From IMG/VR virus record IMGVR_UViG_3300042387_001899, positions 1 through 41,850 of that record: DNA of 41,850 nucleotides, one strand, 5' to 3'. The position numbers and the translations under genes are program-made. The DNA is from a virus. The first letter of the stretch is position 1. Every line of letters begins with the position of its first letter. This document shows, in pieces, positions 1-41,850 of the stretch. The notes under the pieces are model-generated. The model saw only the letters and a program-made list of their open reading frames with translations. It had not been told where the DNA came from and searched no databases.

Positions 1-3000
1 GCAATCAGCAAGAGACGCCCATCGAGTCGCAGGCGCAGGTTGTCGAGATCGGCGCAGACCCTACTGGCGCTTTCATCCCCTTCAGCGCCGGCGCAAAAGC
101 CATTGGCCTCTCCCGAGGCATGAAGATCGTCAGCGCCAAGACCGCCAGCGGCATCGAAAAACTCGCAGGCGGCCTTGTCAAAGGCAACGACATCCTCGCC
201 GAGCGTTTCGCCAAGGTTGTCACGGAAAAGACAGGCGTGAGCCCGCAAAACATCTCCGCCGCAGCAAACGCCATGACCTTTGGGCGCAATGTCGGCATCG
301 GTGGAGGTATCGCCGCAGGAGCAGCCGCAGTGGGCGCCCCTCCAGAAGTCAGCGCCACCATTGCCGGGTTCTACCCCGCCTACAAAGCAGGGCTCGGCGT
401 GCTCCGCAAGATCGAGACCGCAGCCGGAACCAGCAAGATCATTCTCCGCGAATCCGCCGACGCCACCAATGGCCTGGACCAAGCCGCCCGAGCCGCCGTG
501 TTGGCGAATCCCGCCGTGCCTTCCATTTTCAAAGAAGTCCTCGAGCGCCCAAGTCAGTTCGTGAGCATCGAGTCCACACCCGCCCGCCTCGCCGCGAATC
601 AAGCCCTCTCGCCGCAGATGCGGGCTTTCATGGGCAAGCTCTCCAACCCCGCCATCGTCCAAGCCGTCCGCGGATCCAGCGCCCTCGCCACAGGTGCCGT
701 GAAAGGTGCCGCAGCAAATGTCCCTTTCGCCCTCCTCGCCGCCAATGCCGGTCAGGATGAAGACGCCGCCGCTATGCTCGCCATGGGCGGCACCTTCGGC
801 GCCCTCGGCGGAGGAGTGGACCGCTTCACCGGCCTCGCCGAGCGTCGCCAGCAAGCCGCCCTCAGCGATGTGTCCCGCATGCTCGTCGATATCGAACTCA
901 ACGCCGGAGATGTCGGAAAAATGATGGCCACGCAGACGCCCGACAACCTCGTCAGGCTCGCCGCCATGCAAGGCACCTTCCGCAACAACCTCGATTTCGT
1001 CCCCCTCAGCGCCGAGGAATACGCCAAAAATGTAGACGCCCAAGGCGGAGCCGGAACCGCCGGCATGTTTGTGCAGGCCCCGCTCGGCGAACGCGCCAAG
1101 GTATTCATCAACCTCGACGCCCGCCGTGGAGGAGTCGAGCCCCACGAATTCGGCCACGCCCTCCTCGCCAGCGGTGCCCTCGACGGCCAGCAAAAATACG
1201 CCGCCCGAGCCTGGGTGGATAAAACCTACGGCCCCGAAGGCGTCCAAGCCCGCGCCGCTGAATACGCCAGCAACATCATCCGAGGCAAAAACGCCAGCGC
1301 CTTCCCCGACGGCAACTTCGAGATCAGCCCCGGCACACTCGCCGCCGAGATGGATAACCTCAGCCAAGGCGGACTCGCCCGAGGCGACATGGACGGCCTC
1401 GATTGGGCCCGCGACGAGATTTTTGCCGAGACCTTCGCCAAGGCCAGCAACACCATGGATTTCGCCGCCATCCGCCGAGGAGCCCCCGCCGGAGGCAACA
1501 TGCTCACCTTCGCCGAGAGCGTCCTCGGTGCCCAAGCCCGTGCCCTCAGCGCCAGCGGTGTGCGCATCGACCCGCAGACCGGCCAAGCCCTCGACACCCC
1601 CGGCAGCCTCTTTAAGGAAAACCCCATCCTCGCCACCGACAAGGCCCTCCTCACCCAGCTCGGCACCTACATCAACAACTACCGCCAGTGGGCCAACGAC
1701 CCCACCCACGAAAAGCCCCGCCCAAACCGCATCGCCCCCAGCGGCCGAGCCAGCGACATCGCCAACAATCCCCAGGTCACATTCTACGACCGAGGCGACG
1801 GCGTGATGGCGACCACCTTCGCTACGAAAGACCCCGTCACCGGCCAAGCCATCCTCCGCGACCAGCGCGACCTCAACAAAGAACACGCCAAGGTCAAAGA
1901 GCAGATCAAAAACATCGTCGGCTCCAAACTCATCGACCCCACAAACCCCGTCCTCGGCCCCAAGAAGACCGCAGACGGCCGCGTCACCGTGCGAGGCCGC
2001 GTCCTCCCGCCCAGCTTCGATTTCCTCAACGGCTTCATGCCCCACATCCGCGCCTTCGCCCGCCAGTTCGAGGCCCTCGGAGCCGCAGGCGAGAGCATGC
2101 AGGTCCGCTACCACGCCATCGGCAGCGGAGACACCGGCGCCATGCGAGTCAACCGCCTCGGCAACCTCGAAGCCATCACCCGCGAAGTCATCCCCTGGGG
2201 ATGGGAACTCACCAAACCAGGCAACCTCAACGCCACCGTGCTCGACCTCTCGCAATTCCGCAAACGCGCCATGCGAGGCATCGCCGAGCGCAACCCCGCC
2301 CTCGCCCCCTTCGATTGGGACATGGGCAAGATCGAAGCCGACCTCAAGACCTACATGGAGAACCACCGGCAGGAACTCCCCGGCAGCACCAAGATCGGCG
2401 AAGAAAAGCGCGACGCCATCAACGCCATCCTCGGCATCGCCACCACCAAAAACCGCGAGCGCAACGCCCTCTCCGGCAGCTTCGGCCCCGGCAGCGCCAT
2501 CAAACAATTCCGCCTCGACCGCGTAGACGCCGCCGTAGGCACCGGCCGCACCGGCTTCCACTTCGACTACGACCGCGCCAACCGCAACTTCATGCCCGAC
2601 AAGCCAGCCCCCATGCCGGACTTGTCAAGAGACCTGCCAGGGCAGGCCATGCCGGATGTTAACCCGATTGAAGACTCTGCGCGGAAGATTCACTCTGTAT
2701 ACGATCAAAGCCTGCTCGCAAAAGACCGCGACACGGCGCTCTATCCACAAAATCCGGTTCAAGGAAGCGTAGTCCTACCGCCTCGATACGGTCTCATTGG
2801 TAATGCGCCTGGTATGCCCAAAAATTTTACTGAAGTGCGCGAATTGGTGAAGTTGCTGGCAGATCGCGTTGAAGACACTGGCCTGCGAGAAACTGAATTT
2901 GCGCAGAAGAGTGCTCGCTTTTATTCCGACATGGCAAGCGAAGCAGTAACTCTGGCCGAAATTATTGATCCACAAATCACCGGCATCGAGCGTTTTAATC

Positions 3001-3896
3001 GCGCTGACGAAATGCTTCGGTATTTAGCGCTTGGTAGCCCTCGCACAAATGTTCCTGTCAACAGCACTAAATCGGCTGGAGCTGCGGCAGCGGCGCTTGG
3101 AGGATTCACTGCCGGCTACAAAATGGGATTTGGAGAGTTGCAACGCGCAACGCGCCAAACGCAAACCGATTTTAATGCCGGTAAACACTTTGATATGGAA
3201 ATCAAAGGCGTCCAAGACAAAGTCCGAACATTCTATATCAACGGTCTTTCGGAGCTCATCGAACTGGCTCGTAAAAACGGCGACACTGCGGCGGTTGAAA
3301 TGCTTCAAACACGAGCTGCAAAATCACTCAAACTTGTTGACCCAACCGCGTCCAACATAACTCCGCAACAACTTGCAGAGACCGAGCGAATCTTGGATGG
3401 TAAAGCCACCATCGACATGTGGGATATGGCAGCCAAGCGTGTTGCTGTGCCGGGTTTTATTCTTGATCCCAAAAAACGGACAGACCTGAAACAACCATTT
3501 GAGTGGACGCAAAAAAGCAAGGCCGCCAAAGACACAATCGGATCTCCCCGCTGGGCCAAAGTTGCAAAAGAGCTCGGCGTCGAATCTCCAGCAGAACTTC
3601 GCTATCAGCAAGCAAGAACGCTGGGCATTGAAGGAAACTTTGATTGGACCGCAGAAACATGGAAAGCCCGTGTAGATAGTGAAACCTCGTTTGCCGGTGC
3701 AGATTTTACAACTTACACCGCAAGCACCGAAGCTGGGTTGTCCCCTGGAGGTGGAGGGCGACTTTACGATGCGCAGCAGGCTATCGATGGAATGTTGGCA
3801 GACGAACTAAATCGCCGCGGGCTGGCATCCATGTTTGGAAAGCAAAAGCTATTTGCACGCAACGCGCAGGAAATCCTGTGGGCTATTGAAAAGTAA
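1..3896 (+). CDS. Giant polyvalent virion protein with HExxH metallopeptidase domain (5' end outside window)
   Basis: The frame is open from the left edge (codons begin at base 3) and the first in-window ATG at 120 is probably internal, so at least 1297 residues of a larger protein are seen. Counting from that ATG, HEFGH lies at residues 342-346 (nt 1143-1157), a zinc-metallopeptidase HExxH signature. DEIFAETF at about 433-440 may supply the third glutamate ligand of a gluzincin-type site. Gly/Ala-rich hydrophobic stretches near residues 60-80 and 195-235 could be membrane-interacting. Giant multi-domain 'polyvalent' proteins with peptidase domains are known in phages and are thought to be injected with the DNA. 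The neighbouring internal virion proteins on the right edge agree with this. Codon use changes abruptly near nt 2640, from strongly C-ending to mixed, lower-GC codons, which suggests a recombination joint. The gene ends at TAA 3894-3896, but the frame continues open beyond it. Confidence 0.72.
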   Translation, partial: NQQETPIESQAQVVEIGADPTGAFIPFSAGAKAIGLSRGMKIVSAKTASGIEKLAGGLVKGNDILAERFAKVVTEKTGVSPQNISAAANAMTFGRNVGIGGGIAAGAAAVGAPPEVSATIAGFYPAYKAGLGVLRKIETAAGTSKIILRESADATNGLDQAARAAVLANPAVPSIFKEVLERPSQFVSIESTPARLAANQALSPQMRAFMGKLSNPAIVQAVRGSSALATGAVKGAAANVPFALLAANAGQDEDAAAMLAMGGTFGALGGGVDRFTGLAERRQQAALSDVSRMLVDIELNAGDVGKMMATQTPDNLVRLAAMQGTFRNNLDFVPLSAEEYAKNVDAQGGAGTAGMFVQAPLGERAKVFINLDARRGGVEPHEFGHALLASGALDGQQKYAARAWVDKTYGPEGVQARAAEYASNIIRGKNASAFPDGNFEISPGTLAAEMDNLSQGGLARGDMDGLDWARDEIFAETFAKASNTMDFAAIRRGAPAGGNMLTFAESVLGAQARALSASGVRIDPQTGQALDTPGSLFKENPILATDKALLTQLGTYINNYRQWANDPTHEKPRPNRIAPSGRASDIANNPQVTFYDRGDGVMATTFATKDPVTGQAILRDQRDLNKEHAKVKEQIKNIVGSKLIDPTNPVLGPKKTADGRVTVRGRVLPPSFDFLNGFMPHIRAFARQFEALGAAGESMQVRYHAIGSGDTGAMRVNRLGNLEAITREVIPWGWELTKPGNLNATVLDLSQFRKRAMRGIAERNPALAPFDWDMGKIEADLKTYMENHRQELPGSTKIGEEKRDAINAILGIATTKNRERNALSGSFGPGSAIKQFRLDRVDAAVGTGRTGFHFDYDRANRNFMPDKPAPMPDLSRDLPGQAMPDVNPIEDSARKIHSVYDQSLLAKDRDTALYPQNPVQGSVVLPPRYGLIGNAPGMPKNFTEVRELVKLLADRVEDTGLRETEFAQKSARFYSDMASEAVTLAEIIDPQITGIERFNRADEMLRYLALGSPRTNVPVNSTKSAGAAAAALGGFTAGYKMGFGELQRATRQTQTDFNAGKHFDMEIKGVQDKVRTFYINGLSELIELARKNGDTAAVEMLQTRAAKSLKLVDPTASNITPQQLAETERILDGKATIDMWDMAAKRVAVPGFILDPKKRTDLKQPFEWTQKSKAAKDTIGSPRWAKVAKELGVESPAELRYQQARTLGIEGNFDWTAETWKARVDSETSFAGADFTTYTASTEAGLSPGGGGRLYDAQQAIDGMLADELNRRGLASMFGKQKLFARNAQEILWAIEK

Positions 3897-5476: not shown

Positions 5477-6472
5477 TCACAACCCCCAAAACCTCTCCGC
5501 CTCCGCCTGCCGGACTGCTCGCGCATAGGTTTTGTTCACCATCTGCGGCGACGAGTGCCCGAGGAAAAACGCCGTCTTCCCCGCATCCTGCCACATTGCC
5601 AAGTGCATCGAGGCCGCCGTGTGGCGCAGGCAATTCTGCGGCCACTCGTCCCATCCCATTTCTTCAGCCAATGCCGTGCGTGAACGCTTAATCGAACTTT
5701 CCTCCAGGCAGTCCCATTTCTTCGGCAGACGCCGAGTCAGAGCAGGCAAGATCGGCACATAGCGCTTCCTCGGCACCGGATCAGTGGACTTGATCCTTGG
5801 CACTAAAATCTCTGTCGCCTCCACATGGTCCGGCACACAGCCCGCCACCTCGCTCATCCGCATCCCTCCAAACACCCCCAGCACCAACCAAGCCCGCAGC
5901 CGGTCATCCTCCGCCGTCAACTCCAGCAACCGCTCCACATTTTCCACCGTCAGCAAATGATGCACCGCCGTCTTCTTCGGCACCTCCGCCTTCAGCACCG
6001 GCGACTTCTCGATGTAGTCGTATCTGACGAGCCAGTTGAAAAACAGCCGCAGATAAACAAACCCCTGCGCCCGCGTCGTCCCGCTCCATCCCTTCCGGCC
6101 GAGGAACGCATCAATCGTGCGTGCCGACACCGCCCCCAAATCCAGACCGCCAAACTTCTCCGAAAACTCGCCCAGCCACCACTCCACTAACCGCAGGTGA
6201 TTTCCCCGCAGGCTATCCCGCCTCGCCGCCAAGAAATCCTTTATCCCCTTCGACACCGTCATCCCCTTCGCATTCTCAAAAGAATCCGTCCCCTGCCGGG
6301 TCAACTGCTCCAAGGTCTGCTGCCGAGCCTGCTCCGCCTCCCCCCAGCTCTCAAAAAAACGCCGCTCCACCTTCCCCCCAATCCGCCGCCTCAACCGCCA
6401 AACTTTTTTTCCCCTTAAAACGAACTCCGTCACCGTCACCGACACACTTCCCGTCTCAATATGTTTTTTCAT
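5477..6472 (-). CDS. int: Tyrosine-family phage integrase
   Basis: 331 aa, a normal length for a phage tyrosine recombinase that catalyses site-specific integration and excision. An N-terminal arm-binding-like region (1-60, with VWRLRRRIGGKVERRFF) and a SAM-like core-binding region (about 70-160) precede the catalytic domain. Catalytic residues visible are Arg205 in GGMRMSEV, Arg283 in NCLRHTAAS, His306 in LGHSS and the nucleophile Tyr316 in NKTYAR. The usual first His of the HxxR box is replaced by Asn280. The ATG at 6472-6470 is followed by MKKHIETGS. It is transcribed away from the attachment site, which lies about 140 bases upstream. AGTAGCA[A/C]C repeats and GTTGCCAC repeats in the upstream region probably bind a regulator and the integrase arm domain. 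Confidence 0.95.
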   Translation of the reverse strand: MKKHIETGSVSVTVTEFVLRGKKVWRLRRRIGGKVERRFFESWGEAEQARQQTLEQLTRQGTDSFENAKGMTVSKGIKDFLAARRDSLRGNHLRLVEWWLGEFSEKFGGLDLGAVSARTIDAFLGRKGWSGTTRAQGFVYLRLFFNWLVRYDYIEKSPVLKAEVPKKTAVHHLLTVENVERLLELTAEDDRLRAWLVLGVFGGMRMSEVAGCVPDHVEATEILVPRIKSTDPVPRKRYVPILPALTRRLPKKWDCLEESSIKRSRTALAEEMGWDEWPQNCLRHTAASMHLAMWQDAGKTAFFLGHSSPQMVNKTYARAVRQAEAERFWGL

Positions 6473-6484
6473 GTTGCTCTATCT

Positions 6485-6543
6485 GTTGCCACCGTTGCCA
6501 TGAAAAGGCAAATTCCATTACTAAAGTAGCAACAAGTAGCACC
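6485..6543. promoter_or_regulatory. int upstream region with GTTGCCAC and AGTAGCA(A/C)C repeats
   Basis: GTTGCCAC at 6485 and GTTGCCAT at 6494 are near-direct repeats just before the int start. AGTAGCAAC at 6525 and AGTAGCACC at 6535 are spaced 10 bp, one helical turn. The second motif is identical to three copies between the divergent RHH regulator genes (7761, 7881, 7900). I infer operator sites for an RHH repressor and arm-type sites for the integrase. No clear -35/-10 pair was identified. Confidence 0.5.
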
Positions 6544-6613
6544 ACATGCCAAAACCCCGCAGACCCAGTAAACAAGCACCTCTCCAGCCGTATCTCCTTG
6601 CACAAAAGAAGAG

Positions 6614-6657
6614 AGCCGACGGCGGGAATCGAACCCGCATACATCGATTACGAATCG
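6614..6657 (-). other. attP: Phage attachment site (attP): 3' half of tRNA-Thr(CGT)
   Basis: Read on the minus strand, the segment holds the anticodon loop TTCGTAA (anticodon CGT at 6652-6650), the 3' anticodon stem, a 5-bp T-stem GCGGG/CCCGC with loop TTCGATT, and a 7-nt 3' acceptor strand CGTCGGC. The upstream sequence gives no matching 5' acceptor (GCCGACG) or D-arm, so it is not a functional tRNA gene. Phages that integrate into tRNA genes carry the 3' part of the gene next to int so that recombination restores the host tRNA. Identity with the expected anticodon stem stops after CGA at about 6657, which marks the probable core border. Confidence 0.8.
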
Positions 6658-6694
6658 TGTTTTCTGCCATTGGTTAGCAATAGGTTATGGCGTG

Positions 6695-6715
6695 TGTTGC
6701 CACGCTGTTGCCACG
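6695..6715 (+). repeat. Paired TGTTGCCAC repeats on the far side of attP
   Basis: TGTTGCCAC occurs at 6695-6703 and 6707-6715, 12 bp apart. The same 9-mer occurs at 6484-6492 on the other side of the tRNA-derived core. Arm-type integrase sites flanking a core have this arrangement. The assignment is inferred from position and repetition. Confidence 0.45.
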
Positions 6716-6722
6716 GCAGGCG

Positions 6723-7118
6723 TTATTTTTGCGAGAGGGTGAGGGGTTTGGGGTTGGGGTAGAGGTGGGCGTGGGGGTGGATGAAGGCGACTTTTTTTGG
6801 TGGGATGGTGGTGGTGAAAAAATGTTGTTCTTGAGAAGTGCCGTCCCAGAAGCGGGCTCGGATGATTTGGACGGGGTTGCCGTTGAGGGGCCAGCCTCCT
6901 TGGTAGCAGCGCTTGAGCTCGAGGGTGCAGGGGCTGATGCCGACGACATCGCCGTTGAGGTCGATCATGGCGCCGTAGGGGAGGGTGTGGATTTCGACGG
7001 TGCGGTCGCTGTGCTTGGCTTCCCAGGCTTTTTTGCTGGCCTCAAGGTCGATGGTGCTTTTAGTGGCGCAGCCGCTCAGGAACAAGGCGAGGGCGAGAAG
7101 CAGAAGAGAGGTTTTCAT
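6723..7118 (-). CDS. PEGA-like lipoprotein (131 aa)
   Basis: Residues 1-17 are a lipoprotein signal peptide with lipobox LSGC (Cys17), so the mature protein would be lipid-anchored in the envelope. The mature part contains LPYGAMIDLNGDVVGISPC, close to the PEGA repeat pattern (PxGAxVxxNGxxxGxTP), a small beta domain common in envelope proteins. The gene overlaps the stop of its upstream neighbour by ATGA. It lies on the minus strand with int and the RHH regulator, the strand usually expressed in a lysogen. This suggests a lysogenic-conversion or superinfection-exclusion role, which is inference. It has no part in virion assembly that I can see. Confidence 0.72.
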   Translation of the reverse strand: MKTSLLLLALALFLSGCATKSTIDLEASKKAWEAKHSDRTVEIHTLPYGAMIDLNGDVVGISPCTLELKRCYQGGWPLNGNPVQIIRARFWDGTSQEQHFFTTTIPPKKVAFIHPHAHLYPNPKPLTLSQK

Positions 7119-7393
7119 TTTTGAAAAAGTTGGAATTTTTTAAGCTCTTTTGAACTGACTTGCATTTGATGGACGCGGTAGACGCGACCGGGGGCTATTT
7201 TTTCATAGGAGGATTTGACATTTTCGGCTTCGGCTTCGTTGTCCATGAATCCAAAAACAAGAATGACATTATGCCATTCATTCATGACTGGGCTGTATTG
7301 CTGGACCATGCTGACTTCTTTTTTTTCGCCGGGATAAAAAAAATACAAAAGCATGCCGATACCTGCCGCAATCCAGAGCCAATTTGTTTTCAT
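7115..7393 (-). CDS. Small membrane-anchored protein (92 aa)
   Basis: Translation from ATG 7393-7391 starts MKTNWLWIAAGIGMLLYFFY, one N-terminal transmembrane segment, followed by a soluble part with VILVFGFMDNEAEAENVKSSYEKIAPGRVYRV. This looks like a small alpha/beta domain reminiscent of SPOR-like or sporulation-repeat folds, but the match is weak. A longer version would start 11 codons upstream at 7426, but MKTNWLW makes a better membrane anchor. Its stop overlaps the downstream lipoprotein start, so the two are probably co-translated and may act together at the envelope of the lysogen. Confidence 0.6.
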   Translation of the reverse strand: MKTNWLWIAAGIGMLLYFFYPGEKKEVSMVQQYSPVMNEWHNVILVFGFMDNEAEAENVKSSYEKIAPGRVYRVHQMQVSSKELKKFQLFQK

Positions 7394-7400
7394 GGCGAGG

Positions 7401-7751
7401 TCAGGTCGATGACTTGCGCCGTCCACCCTTCTGGTAGCGGGCCGTCGTAGCTGTTAAGGGTCCACCATCGGAGGTCTCGGTGGAGGGCCGGATCAATGTG
7501 TCCTGGGGGGTAGGGGGGTCTTCATTGAGCCTGTAAGATGGCATGTCGGGCATGGCTTGGCCGAATATTTTAGATTTGCGATCTTCGTCGATCATGGTGC
7601 GGATGGCTTTCTGAACCATCTTGGAACGATCTGTAGGGCAGTAGGCGTTTTCTGGTTTGGCGTTGTGCTCGGCGACCATTTTTTCCAAATAATCGTAGAG
7701 CTCTTTCGGCATCGAGATGTTTACTTTTGATGCTCCGGTTTTCGTTTTCAT
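7401..7751 (-). CDS. Ribbon-helix-helix DNA-binding regulator (candidate lysogeny repressor)
   Basis: 116 aa from ATG 7751-7749, with AGGAG almost touching the start codon. The N-terminus fits the Arc/MetJ RHH fold: a basic strand TGASKVNISMPKELYDYLEK followed by two helices including SKMVQKAIRTMIDE. The C-terminal 45 residues are polar and apparently disordered. RHH proteins bind short direct repeats as dimers of dimers. AGTAGCACC repeats lie directly in front of this gene, in front of the opposing RHH gene and in front of int. With no CI-like HTH gene in view, this is my best candidate for the prophage repressor. It may instead be an autoregulated accessory repressor such as Arc or Mnt of P22. 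Confidence 0.72.
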   Translation of the reverse strand: MKTKTGASKVNISMPKELYDYLEKMVAEHNAKPENAYCPTDRSKMVQKAIRTMIDEDRKSKIFGQAMPDMPSYRLNEDPPTPQDTLIRPSTETSDGGPLTATTARYQKGGRRKSST

Positions 7752-7909
7752 GCTCCTACCAGTAGCACCGATTGCCACCGAGTGCAAAATATTTTTTCGC
7801 CCTGCGCTCCTTTATTTATGCGGGTGTCAAGTGTTTTTTTTGATGGGGTGATCACCTTATAGAAAATATTTTCTTTACCGAGTAGCACCAGTTTTATTCA
7901 GTAGCACCC
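7752..7909. promoter_or_regulatory. Divergent operator/promoter region of the two RHH genes
   Basis: The gap holds AGTAGCACC at 7761, 7881 and 7900 (the last two 19 bp apart, the last touching the plus-strand start codon). It also holds GGTGATCACC, a 10-bp palindrome at 7847-7856, and AGAAAATATTTTCT, a perfect 14-bp palindrome at 7861-7874. It is much more AT-rich than the flanking genes. TTGACA is present on the minus strand at 7830-7825 without a convincing -10. Divergent promoters with shared operators are the expected architecture of a phage switch. Confidence 0.65.
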
Positions 7910-8083
7910 ATGCAAGGTGCATATGTAAAAATCTCAGTGAGTCTGCCGGACGAGGTCTACGGGTTTCTTAAGGCGAAAAGTAAAACGGGGGCAACTCCGG
8001 TGAGTCGGTTGGTGGCTCAAGCTGTGGGCCGCATGGCCGAGCGGGATGCCAAAACAAAAACCAAGGGGAGGGCGTCGAAATGA
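7910..8083 (+). CDS. Second ribbon-helix-helix protein (57 aa)
   Basis: The sequence MQGAYVKISVSLPDEVYGFL starts with the RHH beta-strand (VKISVSLPDEVY) followed by helix KAKSKTGATPVSRLVAQAVGR and a basic tail. The 57-residue length is typical of Arc-like regulators. The ATG at 7910 lies just after an AGTAGCACC repeat, so a repressor on that site would block both transcription and translation start. It heads the plus-strand early operon and overlaps the excisionase-like gene by ATGA. By position it would be the Cro/antirepressor-like partner of the divergent RHH gene, which is inference. Confidence 0.78.
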   Translation: MQGAYVKISVSLPDEVYGFLKAKSKTGATPVSRLVAQAVGRMAERDAKTKTKGRASK

Positions 8084-8280
8084 TTACCATCGATGAGGCG
8101 GCTGCGGAACTTCGTTTGGCTCCGTTCACGGTCAGGAAGTATGCCCGACTGAATATCATCCCGGCGACGAAGGTCGGCCGGTCTTGGATGTTCGACAATG
8201 CGGAGACGCTGAAGGTGGCACTCCAGGTCAAAGGGGGAAACAAACTTCAGCAGGCTCGCCTGCGGGGGAGGATTCAATGA
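8080..8280 (+). CDS. xis: Excisionase-like MerR-type HTH protein (66 aa)
   Basis: MITIDEAAAELRLAPFTVRK is the classic start of the excisionase / HTH_17 winged-helix family (TxxEAAxxLxxxxxTVRxYxRxGxIPAxKxGRxW). The pattern continues with IPATKVGRSWMF. Such proteins bend DNA at attachment sites to direct excision, or act as small regulators. It overlaps both neighbours by ATGA inside the early operon. Use as the recombination directionality factor fits its place between the switch and the replication genes. A pure transcription factor role remains possible. Confidence 0.75.
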   Translation: MITIDEAAAELRLAPFTVRKYARLNIIPATKVGRSWMFDNAETLKVALQVKGGNKLQQARLRGRIQ

Positions 8281-36473: not shown

Positions 36474-38515
36474 TGGGCGGCGGAGGAGGGGGCAGCAAGC
36501 CCAAAACCGGCACGCCACCGCCCCAAGCGCAGCCTATCGACTACGAGGCGCTCATGGCGCAGGGCAGCAAAGCGGCATCCAAACAATTTCGAGACCAGCT
36601 CAAAGCTCAAATTCAAGCCTACCCCGAGATGGAAGGCTTGCAACTCGGCACGATTTCCAAAATCGCAGACAACCTCCGCAACGACTACACGGAAACAGCC
36701 GACGCAGCCCTCTACGCCGCCGCCGACGAAACTGGAAAACTCACCGCCGCCGGAGACAGGATAGGCACCACGGCCACCCGCGCCGACGAGTTAGCCACCT
36801 CAGCGCAGCAATTCGCCCAAGGCCCGACCGCTCTCGACCAGCAAATCTCCGCCCTTGGAGCCAGTGCCATGTCGCAGCAAGCCGATCAGGTCCAAGGTTC
36901 ACGCATCGGCGATCTGGCTCGCATGGATTCAGCCAGCGTCGGTTCTGTCGGGAATGTGCAAGGGCCGTCAGGTTATTCTCCTGCGGAAATCAGGGCGCAA
37001 CAAATCTCCGCCGCTCAAGCTGGACCCGTTGCCAATGTGCAAGCAGCCACGACTGGCCCCATCGAACGAGTCGCTGGAACTCGCGTTGCGGCTGTTGGGC
37101 CTGCATCGTCCGCCCGAGTCCGCCGCGTGCAAGATGTGCGGTCCCGAGACATTCAAGCCAGTGCCGCCGAAAATGCCCTCATGCAAGAGGCCGTTGGCGG
37201 TGGCCTGTCAGGGCAACTCCGAGCACAGGCCCAAAACGACCTGGCCCTTGGCCGCTCCCTCTCTGCCGAGCAATCCCGCGACGCCATCCAATCCGCCCGC
37301 TCCGGTGCGGCCTCTCGCGGCATGGCTACCGGAAACTCCGCCCTCGCCGCCGAGCTGCTTAATCGAGACCGCTTTGCCACCGCTAGGGAAAACGAACGCC
37401 GCACTTTTGCCTCGGGTGTTCTTAACCAAAGCACAGGAATCCAGCAAACCGCCAACCAAGCCTACGCCCAGCGGCAGGACGCCAACGCAGGCCGTGCTCT
37501 CCAAGCCGACACCACCAACCAATCTGTGGCCCAAGCCCGCGCCATGCAGAACGCGCAGTTCGCGCAGCAGGCAAACCTCGCCGACAACCAAAACGCCCAG
37601 CAGCGAGTCCTCGCCGAGGCTGGATACGCCCAGCAGGCCGAACTCTCAAACCAAGATTTCAGCTTCCGCGCTGGTTCCCAAAACGCGCAACTCGCCCAAC
37701 AAGCCGCCCTCCAAAACCAGCAAACGGCATTACAGCTTGGCCTTTCCAACGCGCAGTTCCAACAAGCCGCCGCCCTCGCCAACCAGCAATCAGGGCTTCA
37801 AGCCGGACAGATTAACCAATCCGCCGCCGCCCGCGCCGCTGAATTTCAACAACAAGGAGGGCTTCAAGCCGCCCTCCAGAACCAACAAACCGCCATGACA
37901 CTCGGTTTGACGGATGCACAGTTCCAGCAAGCCGCCAACGCTGCCAATTTCGACGCCGCCAACAACCGCGCCTTCACCGAAGCAGGCTATGACCAGCAAG
38001 CCGCCCTCGCCAACCAGGACGCCAACCAGCGCCAGGTCGAGATGAACCGCGCCTTCCTGCAAAACGCAAACCAATCCGGCATCAATTCCGAAATCTCCCG
38101 AGGCGGCTACGCTTTGGGAGCCCTCGGCCAAACCGCCAACCTCTATGGCCAGCAAGCCGGAGCCTACCAAAACGCCGCCGGGCTTGGCCTTAACATCGCC
38201 AATCAGGCCATGGCCAACGACCCCTACATGCGAGCCTTCGCCCCGGGGACGACCATAGGCGGAGGCACGCTTGGCACCTCAGCCAGCATGATCGGCAACA
38301 CCTGGAGCGGAGCCACCCAAATGGCCGGAAATGTCGCCAGCTTCAACGCCAACATGCTCGACACCCGCTACAACAGCTTCATGAACAACCGTGCCTCCCT
38401 CCAAGGCGCGGCCATGCAAGCCGGTGCGACCGCAGGCGCATCTCAAAACTCCATGATGGGCTCCGGCATGGCCGCTGGCGGCATGGTCCTCGGCATGACC
38501 GCCCTCGCCATTTAA
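36473..38515 (+). CDS. Internal virion protein with Gln/Asn/Ala repeats (680 aa)
   Basis: The start MGGGGGGSKPKTGTPPPQAQ is a Gly-rich tail-fibre/internal protein hallmark of podoviruses. Residues 310-530 hold roughly ten degenerate units of about 20 residues such as NAQFAQQANLADNQNAQQ and QNQQTALQLGLSNAQFQQ, expected to form long coiled helices. A hydrophobic C-terminus (SMMGSGMAAGGMVLGMTALA) could insert into the membrane. It is likely ejected with the DNA to build a trans-envelope channel. TAATG coupling to the next gene. Confidence 0.72.
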   Translation: MGGGGGGSKPKTGTPPPQAQPIDYEALMAQGSKAASKQFRDQLKAQIQAYPEMEGLQLGTISKIADNLRNDYTETADAALYAAADETGKLTAAGDRIGTTATRADELATSAQQFAQGPTALDQQISALGASAMSQQADQVQGSRIGDLARMDSASVGSVGNVQGPSGYSPAEIRAQQISAAQAGPVANVQAATTGPIERVAGTRVAAVGPASSARVRRVQDVRSRDIQASAAENALMQEAVGGGLSGQLRAQAQNDLALGRSLSAEQSRDAIQSARSGAASRGMATGNSALAAELLNRDRFATARENERRTFASGVLNQSTGIQQTANQAYAQRQDANAGRALQADTTNQSVAQARAMQNAQFAQQANLADNQNAQQRVLAEAGYAQQAELSNQDFSFRAGSQNAQLAQQAALQNQQTALQLGLSNAQFQQAAALANQQSGLQAGQINQSAAARAAEFQQQGGLQAALQNQQTAMTLGLTDAQFQQAANAANFDAANNRAFTEAGYDQQAALANQDANQRQVEMNRAFLQNANQSGINSEISRGGYALGALGQTANLYGQQAGAYQNAAGLGLNIANQAMANDPYMRAFAPGTTIGGGTLGTSASMIGNTWSGATQMAGNVASFNANMLDTRYNSFMNNRASLQGAAMQAGATAGASQNSMMGSGMAAGGMVLGMTALAI

Positions 38516-39609
38516 TGAACCCACACCTACAAACCCTCGTCGATCAAACTCTCTACCGCACCGAGTATTGGCTACGGGAATTTCGCAACCCCGTCGTCCT
38601 CTGGAGCGGAGGCAAGGACAGCACCGCCATGCTGCACCTCCTCATCTTCAAGCTCGGCGTGCGGCTCCCCTGCGTGCAGTGGCGCGAACCCCGCTTCCGC
38701 CACCGCTACGCCCACAGCGACCTCCTCGCCCGCGAGTGGGACTTGACCCTCTTCGACTACGCTCCCGGCCGCATCGCCATCCAAGACGGGTTCGACATCG
38801 AGACCGGCGAGCCCCGTTTCGACTTTCTCAAATATTACCAGTGGGGCCACCACAGCGCCCTCGTCCTCAGCCTCGGCACCGAGCACCCCAAGGAAGGCGA
38901 GCCCTACTTGTGCGGCCTCACCGATGTCCTCCAGCGCCCGCTCGGCTCCTTCAACTGGCCGTGGGACGCCGCATTCCATGGCCAGAAAAGCGCCGATGTC
39001 GATCTCATTAAAGGCGGCGTGCCGCTCGCCCAGGATGTCCGCCGTGTGGATGACAGCCCCACGCAACTTTTCCTCATGCGGCATTGGACCGACGACGACA
39101 TCTTCGACTACCTCGAAGCCGAAGGCGTGCCGATGGACCCCACCCGCTACGACCGCGCCTCCGGCAAGTGGGGCCACAAGCAGGACAAATCCCACAACGC
39201 CGACTACTACCCCATCTGCTGGAACTGCGTGAACCGCCACCTCTCCGCCCCCGTGTGGTGCCCCAAGCTCCGCAGCGAGGTAAACAGCATCGCCCACCTC
39301 GCCCCCTACGAAGACAACTCCATCCCAGAGCAAGGCTTCAAACCCACATGGAATCCCAACTCGACTGTCAACGGTGTGGCGCATGTTGCTCGCACCGTTG
39401 GAGCTGGCCCGTGCTCCGGCGCGACCGCTCCGACGCCACCGGCATCCCTGCCGAATACCTCCGCACCGACTACCCCCTGCTCAAGACCGACCCCTGCGGA
39501 CGCTGCATCGCCCTCCGTGGCGAGGTCGGCCAATCCGTCGCTTGTTCCATTTATCCAAACCGCCCCGCCGCCTGCCGAGCATTTGTCCCAGGCAGCCCTC
39601 TCTGCCTAG
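38515..39609 (+). CDS. PAPS-reductase-family protein (adenine-nucleotide alpha-hydrolase, PP-loop)
   Basis: 364 aa. The PP-loop VVLWSGGKDSTAML is at about 27-40, with an adenylate-binding alpha/beta fold (LPCVQWREPRFRHRYAHSDL). WNCVNRHLSAPVWCPKL brings three cysteines near 239-254, in place of the reductase ECGLH motif. Family members reduce PAPS, or transfer sulfur in DNA/tRNA modification (DndC-like). The domain seems to end near residue 285. The remaining 80 residues, from codon 39348 on, look like the out-of-frame shadow of the CxxCxxCC gene and may be a non-functional extension after stop loss. ATG 38515 is coupled by TAATG to the previous gene. Confidence 0.78.
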   Translation: MNPHLQTLVDQTLYRTEYWLREFRNPVVLWSGGKDSTAMLHLLIFKLGVRLPCVQWREPRFRHRYAHSDLLAREWDLTLFDYAPGRIAIQDGFDIETGEPRFDFLKYYQWGHHSALVLSLGTEHPKEGEPYLCGLTDVLQRPLGSFNWPWDAAFHGQKSADVDLIKGGVPLAQDVRRVDDSPTQLFLMRHWTDDDIFDYLEAEGVPMDPTRYDRASGKWGHKQDKSHNADYYPICWNCVNRHLSAPVWCPKLRSEVNSIAHLAPYEDNSIPEQGFKPTWNPNSTVNGVAHVARTVGAGPCSGATAPTPPASLPNTSAPTTPCSRPTPADAASPSVARSANPSLVPFIQTAPPPAEHLSQAALSA

Positions 39610-40155: not shown

Positions 40156-40992
40156 ATGGCCGAACTACAACCCTCCGAACTCGACGCTTTCGCGCAAAAC
40201 TACCAGATCGCCGGCGCGGTGCCTCCACCGCCGCCCAAGCCATCCAAAGGCAATAGCTTTGATTTTAGCCGCATCGTCGTGCAGTCCGAAGAGGATTTCG
40301 CCCGGTTGCCGGAATCGCAAAAACAACTTTTGCGAAACATGAAGCAGGGCATCCAATACACCCCGCAAGCCGCCGCGGAATTCGTCGAGACCTTCAACAC
40401 CCGTCTCATGGAGCAGTCCACGCCAAAAGCCCAAGCCGAGGCGTCCGCAGCTCAGTTGTCGGCCCGCAAAACCCAACTCGATATCGGCAAGCTCGAGCAG
40501 GAGGCCATCGCCAAGGCCAAAGAGCAGGCCGAGCTCAACACCCGCAAGCAGCTTGTCCTTGAAAAAATCAACAAATACACAAACCCCCAAGCTCCAAATT
40601 TCACCGACATTTCTCCCTTGGTCGGAAAATTCGATGGCACAGCCGGAGCCATGCTTGATGCCGGTGGAGCCAATGACCAGCGAGCCGCCCAACGCGCCGA
40701 GCTTGAGCGCCTTGTCAACAACGATGTCCTAGAGCTCACCAAATTCCTCAAGCCCGTTTCCCAGGACGAATTGAAATTCCTCAAAAGCATGAGCCCCCGC
40801 CTGCACCAGAACGACACCATCTGGAGGGAATATCTCCTCGACGCCAAGTCCCGCATCGAAGGCATGGGTGGATCCGCCCCGCAAACAACCGCTCCCCAAT
40901 CCGCCCCCGCACAACCCCAGCAACCCGCCACCCGCATCATCCGCGGCCAAACTTTCGTCCAACAACCCAATGGCAACTGGCTCCCCCAATAG
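40156..40992 (+). CDS. Internal virion protein with coiled coil (278 aa)
   Basis: The start MAELQPSELDAFAQNYQIAG and a Pro-rich PPPPPKPSK segment precede a long coil (QLDIGKLEQEAIAKAKEQAE). The tail is Gln/Pro-rich and ends GQTFVQQPNGNWLPQ, a motif common at the ends of podovirus core proteins. It probably forms part of the ejected core. It overlaps the next gene by 23 bases. Confidence 0.62.
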   Translation: MAELQPSELDAFAQNYQIAGAVPPPPPKPSKGNSFDFSRIVVQSEEDFARLPESQKQLLRNMKQGIQYTPQAAAEFVETFNTRLMEQSTPKAQAEASAAQLSARKTQLDIGKLEQEAIAKAKEQAELNTRKQLVLEKINKYTNPQAPNFTDISPLVGKFDGTAGAMLDAGGANDQRAAQRAELERLVNNDVLELTKFLKPVSQDELKFLKSMSPRLHQNDTIWREYLLDAKSRIEGMGGSAPQTTAPQSAPAQPQQPATRIIRGQTFVQQPNGNWLPQ

Positions 40993-41850
40993 AGAATTCA
41001 CCTCCGACGAACTTGATGCCCTAGCAGCCGCCGAGCTGCCGGTGCAGGACGCCCCCGTTCCCCCGAACGCCTCTACGGCAATCGCCGCAAGCGGAGCGCC
41101 TGGACAGACAGGCTCACCCGAACTGATCACCGGGGAGGGGGCTCTTCCTGCCCGCGGACCCGCCATAGGCCCCGTTGCCCAGCTTGAGGCCCGCGAATAC
41201 TCCACCGAGGAACTCGACCTACTTGATCAGGCTAACAAGCCGCAGGAATTCACCACCGACGAGCTCGACCTTGAAGCCGTCGCCGCCCTTGAAGACCCAA
41301 ACTATGTCCCGACACGCGACGAGTATTTCGAGCAAAAGGCCACCAAGGAGCGCCTCAAGGCCCAAGGCAAAATCCCCGGCAACGCCGAACTTGCAGCCAA
41401 GGTTGTCGGAGGCTTGTTTGTCACTGCCGCAGATGCTTTTTACACGCTGGCTGTAGACCCAGAGGGAAGCGTGACACGCATCCCAGAGACATGGAACCGA
41501 ATAAAAGCAGGCACCCTCAAAGAGCCAAAATCAGAGACTCTTGCCAAAGCCCCCGCCACACTTCAGACCGGCATCGGCCGCGCCTCCATCGAAGCCATGA
41601 ACCTCGGTGGGTGGCTGAATCATCTTGTCCAAGGCGACCCAACTTATCGCAACGATGCCACAGGAGAGTTTCTTTTTGCGGACGCCCGCAACCCCGAAAG
41701 CCTTACCGAGATTCAAGCCCGCTTTCCAGACCAACCCATCCGAGTCACCAATCCAGAAGACCTCAAGGATTACGAATTCCAGCGGCACCTTGAAAAAAAA
41801 GGTGCCGACGCCGAATATCAAGCCCTCGGCCAAAAAACTGCGCCCACCGA
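40970..41850 (+). CDS. N-terminal part of a giant polyvalent virion protein (3' end outside window)
   Basis: 293 codons are visible from ATG 40970 to the window edge. Three degenerate repeats lie near residues 9-95: EFTSDELDALAAAEL, EYSTEELDLLDQ and EFTTDELDLEAVAAL. A hydrophobic region (VVGGLFVTAADAFYTLAV) follows at about 146-163, then polar sequence (SLTEIQARFPDQPIRV). The repeated E-[FY]-[ST]-[ST]-[DE]-ELD unit recalls the N-termini of giant injected virion proteins. It may be the first part of the protein cut at the left edge of the window. Confidence 0.6.
   Translation, partial: MATGSPNREFTSDELDALAAAELPVQDAPVPPNASTAIAASGAPGQTGSPELITGEGALPARGPAIGPVAQLEAREYSTEELDLLDQANKPQEFTTDELDLEAVAALEDPNYVPTRDEYFEQKATKERLKAQGKIPGNAELAAKVVGGLFVTAADAFYTLAVDPEGSVTRIPETWNRIKAGTLKEPKSETLAKAPATLQTGIGRASIEAMNLGGWLNHLVQGDPTYRNDATGEFLFADARNPESLTEIQARFPDQPIRVTNPEDLKDYEFQRHLEKKGADAEYQALGQKTAPT

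Follow-up and report, generated by a model that had tools for sequence, protein, structure and literature searches.

A divergent pair of ribbon-helix-helix genes as the likely immunity region of a temperate phage

The DNA analysed here (hereafter, the window) is a stretch of 41,850 nucleotides, positions 1 to 41,850 of the IMG/VR virus record IMGVR_UViG_3300042387_001899. Two genes for small proteins assigned to the ribbon-helix-helix (RHH) fold, denoted RHH1 and RHH2, face apart over a 158-bp gap, with coordinates and gap length exactly as an earlier note on this DNA had described them. The gap and the genes around it contain the following features, in order.

7401..7751, minus strand: RHH1, 116 amino acids from ATG, with a predicted N-terminal RHH domain (approximately residues 1-62) and a disordered tail
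7761..7769, plus strand: putative operator O1, AGTAGCACC, one half of an imperfect dyad; it tracks the RHH1 N-domain
7786..7856, no strand: centre of the gap, independent of RHH class, with AAATATTTTT, CCTGCG..TGCGGG, TGTCAA (TTGACA on the minus strand) and the dyad GGTGATCACC
7881..7889, plus strand: putative operator O2, AGTAGCACC
7900..7908, plus strand: putative operator O3, AGTAGCACC, 19 bp from O2 and separated by 1 bp from the RHH2 ATG
7910..8083, plus strand: RHH2, a 57-amino-acid Arc/CopG-like protein
8080..8280, plus strand: excisionase-like winged helix-turn-helix gene (xis; HTH_17, 1.9e-7; phrog_629 excisionase, 4e-6), overlapping RHH2 by 4 bp

The three exact copies of AGTAGCACC reported previously are indeed present in the gap, at 7761, 7881 and 7900, and so are the two palindromes, GGTGATCACC at 7847-7856 and AAAATATTTT at 7786 and 7863; with 43% GC, the gap is AT-rich in a relative sense only. 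The triple occurrence within 158 bp is not due to chance, because three copies did not arise in any of 20,000 dinucleotide-shuffled versions of the gap. In the same shuffles, no 9-mer of at least three letter types was seen three times, and the shuffled whole window contained 0.13 exact copies on average. At least 120 stretches with paired AGTAGCACC came up in a blind scan of the collection and were kept out of the evidence. No Shine-Dalgarno sequence precedes RHH2 (7890-7912), and its ATG comes directly after O3, so that its mRNA may have little or no leader. The elements of the centre (7786-7856) include a dyad of the CCCGCA..TGCGGG type, the binder of which could be of host or phage origin. 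Rfam yielded sub-threshold chance matches only.

The RHH identity of the two proteins was upheld by family alignments and AlphaFold models. Taken singly, both proteins match the Pfam RHH families weakly, and a sequence search of the PDB found no match for either. An alignment of 36 RHH2 homologues matches RHH_5, RHH_3 and RHH_1 (best, 4.8e-5), with Pfam RHH families matched in up to 17 of the 36, whereas RHH_1 is matched by only 3 of 38 RHH1 homologues. The AlphaFold (AF2) model of RHH2 has helices at residues 14-27 and 31-54; that of RHH1 has helices at 16-31 and 42-63, a disordered tail and pLDDT of about 95 over residues 11-30. Thus one beta-strand followed by two helices, along with a family-level sequence match, was found as in RHH (MetJ/Arc/CopG) proteins. 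In Foldseek, nearly all of the better-ranked matches of RHH2 are RHH proteins (CopG, Arc, ParD, CdbA), each with a weak E-value because the domain is small; RHH1 has three weak matches, all to RHH antitoxins. The assignment is therefore thinner for RHH1 than for RHH2 and, in the light of the homologues and predicted structures, appears to hold for both.

To the left of RHH1 lie a small gene (7115-7393), a lipoprotein gene (6723-7118), the phage attachment site and the integrase gene; to the right, RHH2 is followed by xis, small genes, a Sak4-like annealing protein and an exonuclease. The left-hand side includes three further features.

5477..6472, minus strand: tyrosine integrase (int; phrog_1, 3.5e-33)
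6485..6714, no strand: attP region, with arm-type repeats GTTGCCAC at 6485, 6696 and 6707 and a partial copy at 6494
6525..6543, plus strand: tandem 10-bp repeats, AGTAGCAAC A AGTAGCACC, inside attP

The attP core (6615-6657) matches the 3' part of tRNA-Thr(CGT) and has the arm-type word GTTGCCAC on both sides; other integrase groups carry different arm words (GTTGCGTC, GTTGGCAC, GTGACAC-like) around the same kind of core. A related integrase (77% identical) was found in L214 (L-numbers denote related records), part of a MAG of Chthoniobacter flavus (Verrucomicrobiota). There, its neighbours are a complete tRNA-Thr(CGT) and sequence that does not look phage-like, which indicates that the phage lineage integrates. 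L214 is one prophage end only and contains no RHH cassette; judging from this record, the host of the window phage is probably a member of the Verrucomicrobiota. The minus-strand lipoprotein gene (6723-7118) weakly matches the Cor superinfection-exclusion protein (E 0.003) and, being downstream of RHH1, would be co-expressed with it in the lysogen, provided that RHH1 is active there. Elsewhere in the window, the product of 38515-39609 has a weak match to phosphoadenosine phosphosulfate reductase (phrog_424, 1.3e-9) and is a possible auxiliary metabolic gene. Both ends (1-3896 and 40868-41850) appear to lie inside genes, and L214 has a longer version of the large gene at the start; the genome in this record has thus probably been circularly permuted or cut.

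Among INPHARED phages, tblastn found no match for RHH1, RHH2 or int; among genome contigs, no relative of RHH1 was found, and only int matched, at the prophage end in L214. A profile of RHH2 had no match in the genome that holds L214 and matched 2 of 286 genomes of its class, one of these in a contig of 17.7 kb, close to the end of which lies an RHH pair. An RHH pair or RHH1-like gene is present in L311 (16734-17194) and L312 (10569-10901), bacterial contigs of the same class; L312 also carries relatives of Sak4 and of the exonuclease.

RHH proteins that autoregulate on repeats are also found in toxin-antitoxin and plasmid-partition loci, and the weak Pfam matches to CopG and HicB-like antitoxins as well as the iteron-like repeats are what such a locus would offer. 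However, neither the toxin gene expected in a type II toxin-antitoxin system nor a ParA-type gene lies next to the pair, and no toxin family was found among the neighbours; the partners are excisionase-like and lipoprotein genes, RHH genes stand on both sides of the gap, and a tRNA gene is where the phage lineage integrates. We regard a locus of this kind as very improbable.

Approximately 40 distinct related cassettes of one architecture were collected from related viral contigs. Comparison of the window phage (W) with two of these, L018 and L019, delineates an exchanged unit.

7564..8032, approximately 470 bp, no strand: exchanged block (putative immunity cassette) with the RHH1 N-domain, the operators and the RHH2 N-domain, bounded by the blastn breakpoints against L018 and L019

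Up to 7563 and from 8033 on, W is 91-92% identical to L018 and L019 (blastn); inside the block, the sequences are diverged (28-72% per 50 bp). These breakpoints split RHH1, with the N-domain in the exchanged block and the tail in the backbone; accordingly, the N-domain was swapped together with the operators and the tail was kept. The converse is seen in L002 and L008, which are 93-94% identical to W over 7386-8083, with the xis gene (8084-8275) and the int/attP side replaced. Eleven classes of RHH1 domain were distinguished, with class-specific operators around a conserved centre: class A, to which W belongs, has AGTAGCACC, class B GATATGATCGATCATATC, class C GGTAGTAAC plus GGTAGCAC-N-TTGCTACC, and class H AGTAATACGAGTATGACC. 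L010, L013 and L235 carry a perfect O1 dyad, GTAGCA-N5-TGCTAC. Since the centre between the operators is kept across all RHH classes, divergence is not uniform over the exchanged block; this centre is likely a promoter core.

Across the related cassettes, O1 distances correlate with those of the RHH1 N-domain (Mantel r=0.72), and O2/O3 distances with those of both the RHH1 (0.82) and RHH2 (0.84) N-domains; the Mantel p-values are optimistic, given that the cassettes are related sequences, and part of the covariation is linkage because operators and RHH domains share one exchanged block. O1 tracks RHH1 more than RHH2 (partial correlations of 0.45 and 0.10, respectively), and O2/O3 track both (0.40 and 0.50). 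After control for the RHH domains, the partial correlations of the operators drop to 0.01-0.05 for xis and to 0.03 and -0.19 for the RHH1 tail. In view of this covariation, RHH1 and RHH2 are candidates for sequence-specific binding to the short repeated operators. The putative specificity proteins and operators were found to be exchanged jointly within a similar backbone, as in heteroimmune phages, and related phages seem to exchange the whole RHH unit in the way immunity regions are exchanged; an immunity region of this type would be predicted to confer superinfection immunity specific to its own class. In three close relatives, L232-L234, the Sak4 of which is 91% identical, a dissimilar divergent pair, judged RHH-like by eye and with weak profile scores, lies upstream of Sak4, with one more gene separating RHH2 from xis; even this replacement pair looks like RHH.

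The earlier note had further proposed that the RHH pair controls int as well, given an exact AGTAGCACC at 6535 and a copy with one mismatch at 6525, both of which are present. The attP copy follows the integrase and excisionase, not the RHH class: it is kept in W (class A), L018 (class C) and L019 (class B), all three of which have the same int and xis, and no AGTAGCACC was found near int in class A phages carrying other integrases. Control of int by the RHH proteins through AGTAGCACC was therefore rejected. Variant tandem repeats lie near int in L020 (AGTAGCAATA AGTAGCAATC GGTAGCACG) and L214 (AAGTAACACC GAGGAGCAAC AAGTAGCACC). Because the tandem 10-bp repeats at 6525-6543 sit between the arm sites and the core, they are probably an excisionase or integrase site rather than an RHH operator. 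Indeed, int and xis distances are tightly correlated (Mantel r=0.94), although the RHH cassette sits between these genes, and those of int are unrelated to the RHH1 (r=0.06) and RHH2 (r=0.05) N-domains. By these distances, xis is outside the RHH module and co-inherited with int, such that each integrase is paired with its likely directionality factor.

The presence of one word in both the attP region and the RHH gap of the same phage, together with the tandem 10-bp spacing that suits an excisionase array, raises the alternative that AGTAGCACC is the site of the excisionase-like protein (8080-8280) at both attP and the early promoter, with the RHH proteins binding elsewhere. The recombinants make this very improbable: within RHH class A, the gap operators remain AGTAGCACC over four xis classes, and under the same xis (W, L018, L019), they change completely with the RHH class. 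More generally, multi-member RHH1 classes hold their operator words constant over several xis classes. With operators and xis class so dissociated, the excisionase was rejected as the owner of the gap operators, and the locus differs in this respect from the P2 Cox and 186 Apl systems, where an excisionase-like protein owns the switch operators. Such natural recombinants show how repressor operators can be separated from look-alike attP sites.

No CI-like repressor, which the earlier note saw as the finding that would speak against a switch made of RHH proteins, was detected: there was no HTH_3 match over the cut-off and no S24 match in 10 related records of 35-42 kb, the window included, and no HTH_19 match in 12 such records. 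In the control genomes, these profiles matched 14 of 14 (HTH_3), 14 of 14 (HTH_19) and 13 of 14 (S24). The searched records are listed as 'linear', and a repressor of another fold could escape these three profiles. IMG/VR states no completeness; the length of several records, near 41-42 kb, suggests near-complete genomes. By these searches, the features of a lambda-type CI/Cro switch, namely, an HTH_3-type domain, often with an S24 cleavage domain, were not found.

Could the RHH pair be an accessory regulator, with lysogeny maintained by a separate primary repressor of another type? This is how the Mnt/Arc pair works in P22 immI, where it only modulates C2/Cro (PMC11016777). The window record may be incomplete, and many of its proteins have no family match, which leaves room for such a repressor. 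Against this reading, the profile searches of the window and its 9-11 relatives found none, the pair lies directly ahead of the xis/recombination operon with no ant gene in sight, and it is the RHH pair that swaps specificity. On balance, we consider an accessory role unlikely.

We therefore favour, as likely, the reading that the immunity (lysis-lysogeny) region of this temperate phage is built only from RHH proteins, with the AGTAGCACC near int belonging to a separate int-attP-xis module. The earlier idea that an RHH pair replaces CI/Cro thus stands with respect to position, immunity-like exchange and the lack of a detectable CI-type repressor, and falls with respect to int. The broader claim, that a whole temperate Verrucomicrobiota phage lineage uses an RHH-only switch with at least 11 exchangeable specificity classes and no CI-type repressor, is somewhat less certain, and we lean towards it. 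In the proposed scheme, RHH1, the putative maintenance repressor with a CI-like role, would head a leftward operon that also holds the lipoprotein gene, and would bind O1, in autoregulation, as well as O2/O3, thereby silencing the early operon on the right (RHH2, xis, Sak4 and the exonuclease gene); given that only one base separates O2/O3 from the RHH2 ATG, their occupancy could block initiation of this operon. RHH2, the first product of the rightward operon, is proposed to be a Cro-like early regulator that would occupy these same sites and reduce transcription from the leftward promoter; it could instead be a simple autorepressor. The perfect O1 dyads, with half-sites 11 bp apart centre to centre, would leave room for two RHH dimers side by side, an arrangement taken from known RHH proteins such as Arc.

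If so, lysogeny in a group of temperate phages is apparently governed mainly by an RHH pair, and this switch diversifies like lambdoid immunity. Annotation pipelines that seek CI-like repressors would miss such a module, and the approximately 40 natural operator-protein pairs could serve as material for an RHH recognition code. The roles commonly ascribed to RHH proteins are those of accessory regulator, antitoxin or plasmid copy-number repressor, and a literature search, with many journals outside its reach, found no RHH pair described as the main immunity system of a phage.

The nearest arrangement is P22 Mnt/Arc, though this is secondary to C2/Cro. In immI, Mnt represses arc and ant, and Arc represses mnt (PMC11016777). 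The likeness is that a single immunity locus carries two small, linked RHH regulators, and a divergent RHH pair was found here; however, P22 has ant and a separate primary C2/Cro region, neither of which was found at the window locus, where the pair heads the xis/recombination operon and the gene after RHH2 is excisionase-like, unlike ant next to arc. The nearest known system in role is SSV1 F55, a small RHH protein that maintains lysogeny by binding a repeated 11-nt site found at several promoters of the virus (PMC9608457). Compared by description only, F55 resembles the proposed switch of the window phage in being an RHH protein that acts on repeated sites in lysogeny, and differs in belonging to an archaeal fusellovirus and in being a single gene, described as unique to SSV1, with no divergent partner described. 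In the swaps of the lambda CI/Cro imm region, repressor specificity and operators differ together. Likewise, in Cluster A mycobacteriophages, repressor specificity and operator words diverge jointly between otherwise similar phages (PMC6550527). The window cassette resembles these heteroimmune phages in the joint divergence of putative repressor and operators, and differs from them in having the RHH fold, not helix-turn-helix, on both sides of the switch.
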